From: Prochlorococcus marinus subsp. marinus str. CCMP1375
Lineage (GTDB): Bacteria > Cyanobacteriota > Cyanobacteriia > PCC-6307 > Cyanobiaceae
NCBI RefSeq assembly: GCF_000007925.1
Contig: NC_005042.1
Coordinates: 992,001 to 1,056,000 of the forward strand
Length of the DNA stretch: 64,000 bases
Direction of reading: 5' to 3'
Below the pieces are notes generated by a model. The model searched no databases, was not told the DNA's origin, and was given only the letters and a program-made list of their open reading frames with translations. Positions 12,268 through 16,549 of the stretch are shown here, piece after piece; within the stretch, counting starts at the first letter, position 1, and the number at the start of each line of letters is the position of its first letter. Position numbers and translations under genes: made by a program.

Positions 12268-14862
12268 ATGGATATAAAAACTGACAATTTCACTGAAGAA
12301 TCATGGTCTTCAATACTTCAAGCACAATCAAATGCAAAAGGATTTCACCATCAATACATAGAAACTGAGCATCTTTTAAAATCCTTAATTCAAGAGAATG
12401 ATCTTGCAAAAAGCATTATTAAAAAATGCAATGGATCAATAGATCAAATTAAAATGCATTTAAATGATTTTATAAAGAATCAGCCTAAATTAAAAGAACG
12501 TCCTGAAAATTTATTCATTGGTAAACATCTTCAGAAGACAATAAATGAATCAGATCAAATAAAGCAGTCTTTTGACGATGACTTTATTTCTATTGAACAC
12601 TTGTTAATTGCTCTCTCAAAAGATCAAAGATGCTGCAATAAAATACTTATTCATGAAAAAATAGACCCTGAAATACTTTTAAAATCAATAGCAGAAATCA
12701 GAGGGAATCAAAAGGTGACCGATCAAAATCCGGAATCAAAATATGAATCTCTTAAGAAGTATGGCAGAGATCTTACTTCTGCAGCCCGAGAAGGAATTCT
12801 AGATCCAGTAATAGGAAGAGATGACGAAATTAGAAGAACTATTCAAATCCTTAGTCGCAGAACTAAAAATAACCCTGTATTAATAGGTGAGCCTGGCGTT
12901 GGGAAAACTGCAATAGTGGAAGGCCTCGCACAAAGAATTATCAATGGTGATGTACCGTCGGCTCTACAAAATCGTCAATTAATCGCTCTGGATATGGGAG
13001 CTCTTATTGCAGGTGCAAAGTATCGAGGAGAGTTTGAAGAAAGATTAAAGGCAGTCCTAAAAGAAGTGACATCATCACAAGGACAAATTGTCCTTTTTAT
13101 AGATGAAATTCATACAGTTGTTGGAGCTGGTGCTACAGGGGGCGCAATGGATGCAAGCAATCTGCTTAAGCCAATGCTCGCAAGAGGGGAATTGCGCTGC
13201 ATAGGTGCAACAACAATAAATGAACATCGCCAACATATTGAGAAAGATCCAGCATTAGAAAGACGTTTCCAACAAGTCTTAATAAGCGAACCATCCATTG
13301 AAGATACAATATCAATTCTTAGGGGATTAAAAGAAAAATATGAAGTTCACCATGGAGTAAGAATATCGGATAGTGCTTTAGTTGCAGCAGCTGTGCTAAG
13401 CAATAGATATATATCAGAGCGTTATCTGCCTGATAAAGCAATAGACCTAATAGATGAATCTGCTTCTAAATTAAAAATGGAAATCACATCAAAGCCAGAA
13501 GAGTTAGATGAGATAGACCGTAAAATAATTCAATTGCAAATGGAAAAGCTTTCATTAAAAAGAGAATCAAATTTAGCAAGTCAAGAAAAATTAAATGCAA
13601 TAGACAATGGATTGAACGAACTGAAGAGTAAGCAAAGTTCTTTAAATAAGCAATGGCAAGAAGAAAAAGAGTCTATAAATACTCTTTCGTTCTTAAAAGA
13701 AGAAATCGAAAAAGTTCAACTTCAAATTGAACAGGCCAAGAGAGATTATGATTTAAACAGAGCAGCAGAACTTGAATATGGAACTTTAAACTCCTTACAA
13801 AATAAATTAAAGCAAAAAGAGGATTTAATTATGGTCAATAATAATAATGATCAAAAAAGTCTACTTTTAAGAGAGGAAGTAACTGAAAATGATATAACCG
13901 AAGTGATCGCAAAATGGACATCAATACCCTTAACAAAACTTTTAAAATCAGATATAGAAAAGCTATTAGATCTTGAAGACAAATTAAACTCAAAAGTAAT
14001 TGGTCAAAAGCAAGCAGTTCAAGCTGTAGCAGATTCAATACAGCGCTCAAGGACTGGTCTTAGTGATCCAAGTAGGCCTATGGGAAGCTTTTTACTTCTA
14101 GGGCCTACGGGTGTAGGCAAGACTGAGTTATCTAAATCTCTAGCTAAAGAATTATTTGATAGTGAAAAAGCAATGATTAGAATTGATATGTCTGAATACA
14201 TGGAAAAACATTCTATTAGTCGACTAATAGGAGCACCCCCTGGATATGTGGGATATGAGTCAGGAGGACAATTGTCAGAGGCTGTTAGAAGAAACCCTTA
14301 TTCAGTAATTCTTTTTGATGAAGTAGAAAAAGCAAATTCTGATGTATTAAACATAATGCTTCAAATACTTGACGAAGGAAGATTAACTGATGGTAAAGGT
14401 AAAAATATAAACTTTAAAAATACAATTATTATTCTTACAAGCAATGTGGGTAGTGAATCAATAATAGAAATGACCAATAAGAAAAACGAATACGAACTGA
14501 TAGAAGAAGTTGTGAGGAATCAATTAAAAAATTATTTTAAGCCTGAATTTCTAAATAGATTAGATGAACAAATTATCTTTAAAAGTCTTAAGAAAGAAGA
14601 TTTAAAAAAAATTGTTAAATTACAAATAGACAAAGTAAAAGCGAGATTGAAAGACAAGGGATTAGAAATCGAATTAAATGAAAAAGTAATAGATTGGATT
14701 GCCGATAAAGGATATAATCCTATATATGGTGCCAGGCCAATTAAAAGAATAATTCAGACAAAATTAGAAACTAAACTGGCTAAAATGATACTTAAAAGCA
14801 AATCAGAGGAACGCTCACATTATCAATTAGATATTATTGACGATCAAATAGTCTTTAACTAA
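12268..14862 (+). CDS. clpB: ClpB-type disaggregase (Hsp100)
   Basis: An 864-residue two-ATPase-ring chaperone that pulls proteins out of aggregates together with DnaK. Order of domains: Clp N-domain repeats (about 10-145); first AAA+ domain with Walker A GEPGVGKT at 207-214 and Walker B VLFIDEIH; coiled-coil middle domain (about 410-525), which marks ClpB rather than ClpC; second AAA+ domain with Walker A GPTGVGKT and the sensor GARPI near the end. There is no ClpP-binding loop motif that I can see. Cyanobacteria often carry two ClpB types and I cannot tell which this is. Codons are more AT-rich than in clpC at 40.8 kb. Confidence 0.93.
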
Positions 14863-14866
14863 GTAT

Positions 14867-15628
14867 TTAAGAAGGAAGACTATCTAAGCTAAAGCGATAC
14901 CCCTGCTGACGCACTGTTGTAATACCACCTCCATCTCCTAGCCCTGCTTGCTCTAGTTTTCTTCTTAAAGTAAGAACTTGGGTGTCAACAGATCTAGGAC
15001 CGCCACTAAAAGGAGGCCAAGCCATTCTTAACAACTCATGCCTGCTACGGACCATGCCTGGCGGCATCAGAAGGGCACAAAGCAGAGCAAATTCTCTTGG
15101 ACTTAATTCGACAGGTTTTTCTCTTAGTGTTACTTGACGGAGTAGCAAATGTACTTCAAGAGGACCGACTGTAACCCTTTCTTGTAGGCCTATTCGTCCT
15201 CTTTTTAAGAGAGTTCTGCATCGTGCTGCAAGCTCTTCTAAGCCAAAGGGTTTACGCAAAACATCATCTGCTCCATCATCTAAAAGGCCCACCAAGGTCT
15301 CCACTCCGGATCTTGCAGTTAGAACCATTACAGGACACCCTAGTTGTTGGCCCAAATTCAAAGCAGAGCTTTGTTCTAACAACTCAGCACTTACTAAAAG
15401 ATCTGGTGCTTGATCCCTGCATAAATCAATTGCCTCTACAACAGACCCAACTGCAGCAGCCAAATGACCATCTTGCCTAAGCCTCTGAACTAGAACTGTC
15501 CTTAAAGTCGGATGAGGCTCTACTACAAGTATTCTTGAAGGACTTTGACTGGTTGGATGATGAGAGCCACCACCTAGTGAGGGCTGCGCACTTGGCTCAT
15601 CAGAAAGTAGATCTGGAGTTAATGTCAC
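14867..15628 (-). CDS. OmpR/PhoB-type response regulator with degenerate receiver
   Basis: A 253-residue protein with a 30-residue N-terminal extension, a receiver domain (about 32-143) and a winged-helix DNA-binding domain (about 152-249, ending TTVRQQGYRF). The receiver keeps Thr104 (VLTAR) and Lys126 (RKPF), but the phospho-acceptor Asp is replaced by Ala81 in PDLLVSAELL, and the acidic pair is Glu37-Pro38 in VVEPHP. It therefore probably cannot be phosphorylated by the normal route and may work as a constitutive or ligand-gated regulator. Base composition is visibly more GC-rich (about 45-53% in sampled 60-base lines) than its neighbours. It converges on clpB with a 4-base gap. No partner kinase is adjacent. 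Confidence 0.85.
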   Translation of the reverse strand: MTLTPDLLSDEPSAQPSLGGGSHHPTSQSPSRILVVEPHPTLRTVLVQRLRQDGHLAAAVGSVVEAIDLCRDQAPDLLVSAELLEQSSALNLGQQLGCPVMVLTARSGVETLVGLLDDGADDVLRKPFGLEELAARCRTLLKRGRIGLQERVTVGPLEVHLLLRQVTLREKPVELSPREFALLCALLMPPGMVRSRHELLRMAWPPFSGGPRSVDTQVLTLRRKLEQAGLGDGGGITTVRQQGYRFSLDSLPS

Positions 15629-15979: not shown

Positions 15980-16309
15980 TCAAGAAGCAAGAGCAATCTC
16001 AAGTTTCTCCAGTAATTCGCCAGAGTTATACATTTCTATCAAAATATCGGATCCCCCCAAAAATTCTCCTTTTAGATATACCTGAGGGATTGTGGGCCAA
16101 TTTGAATATTCTTTAATAGCTTCCCTGATATCCATATCAGAAAGGACATCGAAGGTCTCGAAATGCTTTCCTAGAGCATTAAGTATTTGAACAACATTAT
16201 TTGAGAAGCCGCACTGAGGCATCAATTTTGTTCCTTTCATGAAAACCATTATTGAATGAGAATTGATTAAATCTTCAATCCTTGCTCGAGTTTCTAAATT
16301 CATAATCAA
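15980..16309 (-). CDS. grxD: Monothiol glutaredoxin, Grx4/GrxD type
   Basis: A 109-residue glutaredoxin with the monothiol active site CGFS at residues 33-36, the upstream FMKGTK motif, the cis-Pro segment WPTIPQVY and the GSDI glutathione-binding turn. Grx4 proteins carry or transfer [2Fe-2S] clusters, often as a heterodimer with BolA. The start may be the first ATG or the third codon ATG. The bolA-like gene lies 9 bases upstream on the same strand, so the two are very likely one operon and one complex. Confidence 0.94.
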   Translation of the reverse strand: MIMNLETRARIEDLINSHSIMVFMKGTKLMPQCGFSNNVVQILNALGKHFETFDVLSDMDIREAIKEYSNWPTIPQVYLKGEFLGGSDILIEMYNSGELLEKLEIALAS

Positions 16310-16318
16310 AAAGGAGCT

Positions 16319-16549
16319 TTAGGGAGTAGATGTTTTTAATGCCAATGCATGAATAGATTCACTGGCCAGCTCTTTAGCAAGAGCGCGATAAATCAATTGA
16401 TGTTGCTGCACACGTGAAAGACCTGCAAATGTCGATGAAACCACATTTACATTCAAATGGTCTCCACCACCATTGATATCCTCAACATTAACCATCGCAT
16501 CGGGAAGAGAACTTTTTATTAATGCTTTTACTTCTTCAGGATGAACCAT
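16319..16549 (-). CDS. BolA/IbaG family protein
   Basis: A 76-residue protein with the compact BolA fold: an N-terminal helix ([12 protein letters not shown]), beta strands with the GGGDHLNV loop, and the C-terminal signature HQLIYRAL. His in the GGDH segment and the His in the C-terminal part are the usual cluster ligands when BolA pairs with a CGFS glutaredoxin. Its position directly before grxD supports a Grx4-BolA [2Fe-2S] pair involved in iron sensing or cluster delivery. Length is normal for the family. Confidence 0.93.

Follow-up and report, generated by a model that had tools for sequence, protein, structure and literature searches.

The question raised by this locus is how an OmpR/PhoB-type response regulator may operate when its receiver domain has lost the aspartate that accepts phosphate. 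The gene lies on the reverse strand at 14867..15628 of the window, by which we mean the whole 64,000-nucleotide stretch of the Prochlorococcus marinus CCMP1375 genome analysed here. The genome is a single contig of 1,751,080 bases with six receiver genes in total. An earlier note, made from the sequence, had described a regulator lacking the receiver Asp with an unusually GC-rich sequence; we confirmed the open reading frame, its coordinates, its strand and its GTG start. We found no study of this gene in the literature searched.

Gene and domain organization

The gene is predicted to encode 253 amino acids, and we annotate it as an aspartate-less OmpR/PhoB-type response regulator on the basis of the ORF, Pfam and its orthologs. 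Both domains scored above the Pfam cut-offs, Response_reg (PF00072) at 44.9 bits over residues 33-136 and Trans_reg_C (PF00486) at 57.4 bits over residues 171-246; with the fold matches described below, they give the expected architecture of a receiver followed by a C-terminal winged helix. The pseudo-receiver occupies residues 32-143 (15200..15535, reverse strand, as are the regulator features that follow), and Pfam and column identity place the winged-helix DNA-binding domain at approximately residues 151-247 (14888..15178). Across residues 156-247 the mean column identity in Cyanobiaceae is 97%, with 71 of 92 columns above 99%. The recognition-helix region (residues 211-227; 14948..14998), PRSVDTQVLTLRRKLEQ, is frozen in Cyanobiaceae and reads PRTVDTHVLSLRKK in other cyanobacteria.

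Phosphorylation-site residues and predicted structure

Ala81 (15386..15388) falls in the alignment column of the phospho-acceptor Asp, as the earlier note had it. Among 172 readable Cyanobiaceae sequences this column holds Ala in 166, Ser in 3, Thr in 3 and Asp in none, a count that excludes chance as the cause of the missing Asp. The alignment also bears out the proposal that Glu37-Pro38 (15515..15520) replaces the acidic pair (DD1/DD2), with P38 present in 169/172. Thr104 (15317..15319), the conserved switch residue, and Lys126 (15251..15253), the active-site lysine that is invariant inside and outside Cyanobiaceae, are retained as had been claimed, as is the winged helix by its Trans_reg_C score. 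The residue after the Asp position, Glu82 (D+1; 15383..15385), is found in 172/172 Cyanobiaceae and is never Glu outside, and at K-3 the Tyr of Y-T coupling, present in 83/83 outside sequences, is Val123 (15260..15262) in 172/172 Cyanobiaceae. The Pro at D+4 and the Gly at D+8 are also gone across the family. Compared with a canonical phosphorylatable receiver, the protein has the Thr/Ser switch residue and the active-site Lys, but neither the phospho-acceptor Asp, nor two acidic residues, nor the K-3 aromatic. As a Pfam-recognised receiver without the Asp and other key residues, it is by definition an aspartate-less, or pseudo-receiver, regulator; pseudo-receivers make up approximately 2% of PF00072 (PMC12632262) and approximately 2% of OmpR-type architectures (PMC4395418).

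An AF2 model of the protein (mean pLDDT 82.8, with most of the receiver above 90) predicts a complete (beta-alpha)5 receiver fold in which strand beta3 ends at residue 81, the position of the phospho-Asp. The alignment behind this retained model included receivers from viral contigs, on which we found no member of the family; Prochlorococcus-only rows gave a pLDDT of 48, and that model was discarded. By VIA-align, the predicted receiver superposes on solved OmpR-family receivers, including PhoP/VicR, with Z of 18-19 at 1.7-2 A, and the fold search also matched the structures of CosR and HP1043. The model and the superposition together suggest that the fold is complete and that only the phospho-chemistry is missing.

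Orthologs, neighbours and related regulators

Matches are present in 281/300 Cyanobiaceae genomes; six of these match only a paralog and are left out of the ortholog counts, which are approximately 275/300 overall and 194/197 for genomes at least 90% complete. The Cyanobiaceae orthologs are 67-100% identical to the window protein and adjoin DUF6761-grxD-bolA. In the window these neighbours are a DUF6761 protein (PF20547; 15703..15975, forward strand), divergent from the regulator in 166/167 Cyanobiaceae and at 37/79 other loci; a monothiol (CGFS) glutaredoxin, grxD (15980..16300, reverse strand), a syntenic marker in 166/167 Cyanobiaceae and 24/79 others; and a BolA protein (16319..16549, reverse strand), a marker recognised by locus comparison. 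The divergently paired DUF6761 protein may be functionally linked to the regulator.

A profile search of 80 genomes of other cyanobacteria gave a bimodal result: a single member scoring 228-380 bits was present in 70 of them (the 228-bit hit being to an incomplete gene), and no further paralog exceeded 203. These outside members carry an AWP...P.R.VDT..L signature (AWP/VDT/L219) that is absent from the sampled RpaA, RpaB and other paralogs. In the tree, the family separates from 13 paralogs at a branch supported at 100/98. Reciprocal best hits are not decisive, as RpaA often has the higher score from the other side, and we base orthology on synteny, signature and tree.

Better-known identities did not fit. 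The protein scores 92.8 bits against the RpaB model (NCBIfam NF045944, cut-off 330) and 116.2 bits against that for PhoB (TIGR02154, cut-off 296). RpaA, RpaB and PhoB of the same genome share its architecture, yet they have DD/DE pairs, the Asp and a Tyr at K-3. Against NblR (NCBIfam NF045914, cut-off 300) it scores 74.3 bits, and its orthologs outside Cyanobiaceae score 108-125. NblR of Synechococcus elongatus resembles it as an atypical cyanobacterial OmpR-type regulator that is active unphosphorylated, but forms a separate family: S. elongatus-like genomes also have a member of the present family, itself scoring 125 bits. We also considered PMT9312_0717 (PMC6365647) and think it unlikely to be the same gene, because it was described near a DedA gene, and the DedA-type gene seen here is close to the RpaA-like regulator (1634336-1638331 of this genome) and not to the present one. 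The arrangement suggests that the phosphate-linked PMT9312_0717 may be RpaA, and not a new phosphate regulator.

On its other side the regulator is convergent with clpB, with 4 bases between the stop codons (14859-14870). We found no terminator-like site between the two genes, and with so short a gap their transcripts may overlap. Related genomes, like this one, have a clpB copy (window 12268-14862) next to the regulator, whereas the high-light strain MIT 9401 (L095 6699-10201) has two unrelated ORFs there, by eye like carotenoid isomerase and TrmFO.

Timing of the Asp loss

Outside Cyanobiaceae the Asp is kept in 71/83 rows, which include two genes counted twice, and is otherwise replaced by Glu (5), Ser (5) or Ala (2); almost all of these members already read E-G/S/A-N at the acidic pair, with the second acidic residue gone. 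The earlier note would have yielded to orthologs with a normal Asp. There are none among the 172 readable Cyanobiaceae sequences, and although most distant orthologs do have the Asp, they have it beside a broken acidic pair, so that its presence dates the loss and does not refute it. The tree requires at least five changes in Asp presence. One lineage outside Cyanobiaceae has Glu at the site (L174, L180, L183, L254 and L257) and another has Ser (L250-L253), and these are independent losses within the same orthologous family. S. elongatus-like genomes (L167 and L178) have an Asp-to-Ala member, reading LIVLAIDLPDG, which offers a laboratory-tractable ortholog. A single clade of Cyanobiaceae and these Ala-bearing rows was not rejected (p-AU 0.40), and their losses may therefore be one event, with caution called for by the long branches in the tree.

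The Cyanobiaceae stem branch is 2.15 substitutions per site long, and the later branches are short. The window protein has a median identity of 86% with sequences inside the family and 36% with those outside; for the neighbouring glutaredoxin the figures are 82% and 68%, and RpaA shows about 67-86% inside and 64-70% at its best outside matches. Fully 139 positions are at least 98% fixed. Fifty-one positions are fixed inside Cyanobiaceae, with residues that occur in less than 5% outside, among them P38, H39, E82, V123, C70 and C184 as well as S213, Q217 and R223 of the recognition helix. The pattern is that of one radical rebuilding on the picocyanobacterial stem, followed by stasis.

Selection and base composition

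In comparisons of the window gene with close relatives, synonymous sites approach saturation, whereas dN is approximately 0.02-0.15 for the receiver and 0.02-0.05 for the DNA-binding domain. Where it could be measured, dN/dS is at most about 0.04. The receiver is constrained and not decaying, and is under strong purifying selection. With the Asp, DD2, the K-3 aromatic, the D+4 Pro and the D+8 Gly all gone under such selection, loss of phospho-signalling is well supported.

The earlier note had put the GC content at about 45-53%, against the mid-30s around it, and had considered transfer as its source. The content is indeed raised, although the size was a little overstated: at 46.1% the gene ranks first in GC among 50 window genes, whose mean is 36.4%, and 300-base windows give 43-46%. 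GC3 is ordinary (0.277 versus 0.243, z 1.2). Among the 50 genes the regulator is at the top for its share of Gly, Ala, Arg and Pro and at the bottom for Phe, Tyr, Met, Ile, Asn and Lys, and the codon-usage check that had been suggested gave no sign of transfer: under window codon usage this protein would be expected to have 44.6% GC. The excess is thus an amino-acid effect. The GC rank is all that could encourage a view of the gene as a recent, GC-rich horizontal arrival or as a decaying pseudogene, and we give either virtually no credence; the ordinary GC3, the composition-expected GC, synteny in 166/167 Cyanobiaceae and the low dN/dS refute both, and we reject transfer in favor of vertical inheritance.

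Mode of action

The Asp has been lost, and yet a single copy is kept almost unchanged in nearly all relatives among Prochlorococcus and marine Synechococcus, which suggests that the protein is probably a phosphorylation-independent core regulator. By analogy with HP1043 or ChxR, we favor, with moderate confidence, a vertically inherited, single-copy OmpR/PhoB-type regulator that would act constitutively as a dimer, independently of phosphorylation. The receiver is a pseudo-receiver, unable to accept phosphate at the usual site; its complete, constrained fold would most likely serve as a standing dimerisation or scaffold module that lets the protein bind DNA unphosphorylated, and output would depend on how much of the protein is present or on a partner, as in HP1043 and ChxR. 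A core, possibly essential, role and an altered target sequence would go with this. The regulator keeps D122, E132, R136 and R143, which we take to be the counterparts of the PhoB alpha4-beta5-alpha5 dimer salt-bridge residues. Pseudo-receiver regulators that form dimers in the unphosphorylated state have been described (PMC12632262, PMC5253667). Counting against this explanation, K+2 is Phe, a residue linked to an inactive bias in CheY (PMC12632262).

We found no regulon or target site. In the 75-base divergent intergenic region, footprinting, judged by eye, gave no repeat and nothing beyond a promoter-like -35/-10 pair; a promoter scan gave nothing exceeding shuffled expectation, and Rfam and PADLOC returned no matches.

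Control could come through protein level, a partner or a ligand, and less likely through the cysteines gained on the stem. If the pseudo-receiver served as the input by binding a small ligand or another protein, that binding would switch DNA binding and the action would not be constitutive. The stem-fixed receiver residues H39, T41, Q48, R49, R51, D53, E82, E110, E131, A134 and R138 would suit a new binding surface, and the pseudo-receivers of KaiA, CikA, JadR1 and RedZ bind ligands (PMC12632262). We nevertheless regard such an input as unlikely: neither partner nor ligand was found, a linked kinase or enzyme gene is absent, and the neighbours grxD, bolA and DUF6761 are older than the receiver change. 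A thiol switch, with redox-dependent oligomeric state as in RitR or Hp1021-type regulators, strikes us as improbable. Cys70 (15419..15421; 172/172 Cyanobiaceae), Cys137 (15218..15220; 168/172) and, in the DNA-binding domain, Cys184 (15077..15079; 172/172) are almost absent elsewhere; redox regulation of RitR and Hp1021 is cysteine-based, and cyanobacterial RpaA, RpaB and Rre1 have been reported to carry thiol switches (PMC9321951). These cysteines, however, stand where outside sequences have Phe/Leu/Tyr, Val/Ile and Tyr, respectively, and as replacements of Phe, Val and Tyr they may be buried; most columns around Cys184 are invariant, which makes its own invariance weak evidence, and the grxD-bolA linkage predates all three. 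Still more doubtful is phosphorylation persisting at another residue (the Glu82 region, Thr104, or Ser/Thr elsewhere) and controlling the regulator, for which we see very little room. Retention of Thr104 and Lys126 and the invariance of Glu82 would be in keeping with it, but the metal-binding DD2 is Pro, K-3 is Val, the D+4 Pro and D+8 Gly are gone, and Glu is no known phospho-acceptor of receivers.

The constitutive, dimeric reading that we prefer has its closest working models in HP1043, CosR and ChxR (PMC5253667, PMC3139631, PMC3960148). HP1043/HsrA of Helicobacter and CosR of Campylobacter are likewise orphan OmpR-type regulators of small, regulator-poor genomes, with a non-canonical receiver and a core role (putative here), although their homology to the present regulator is limited to the superfamily, at 22-24% identity. 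ChxR of Chlamydia is an OmpR-type protein active without phosphorylation (PMC3960148), as we suppose for the present regulator; it differs in that its Asp site holds Glu and part of its receiver's secondary structure is missing, where ours has Ala and a complete predicted fold. The protein also resembles the aspartate-less receiver (ALR), or pseudo-receiver, OmpR-type regulators (PMC4395418, PMC12632262) in having no phospho-Asp, in keeping DD1 and the Lys beside a non-acidic DD2, and in its winged-helix output. It departs from them at K-3, which is Val here but an aromatic in about two thirds of ALRs, and in its distribution and history: almost all genomes of a single bacterial family have one copy, and the two steps of the loss can be dated.

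Implications

Prochlorococcus has approximately six response regulators, and the present one is conserved as strongly as any neighbour tested. Because it cannot serve as an ordinary two-component output, a part is missing from the kinase-to-regulator maps of Prochlorococcus. What activates or inactivates pseudo-receivers has been called still a mystery (PMC12632262), and the present family offers a good natural series for testing it, being nearly universal and having a loss that can be dated, 51 residues fixed on the stem, and sister orthologs that bear the Asp. We think it possible, though somewhat short of probable, that a pan-cyanobacterial regulator whose acidic pair was already weak underwent a single rebuilding when the picocyanobacteria arose, with the Asp lost and the receiver surface, cysteines and recognition helix replaced, and that it then froze in a core transcriptional role, answering to a new input other than phosphate and binding a new DNA target. 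Were that so, such a regulator would be carried by the ocean's most abundant phototrophs.
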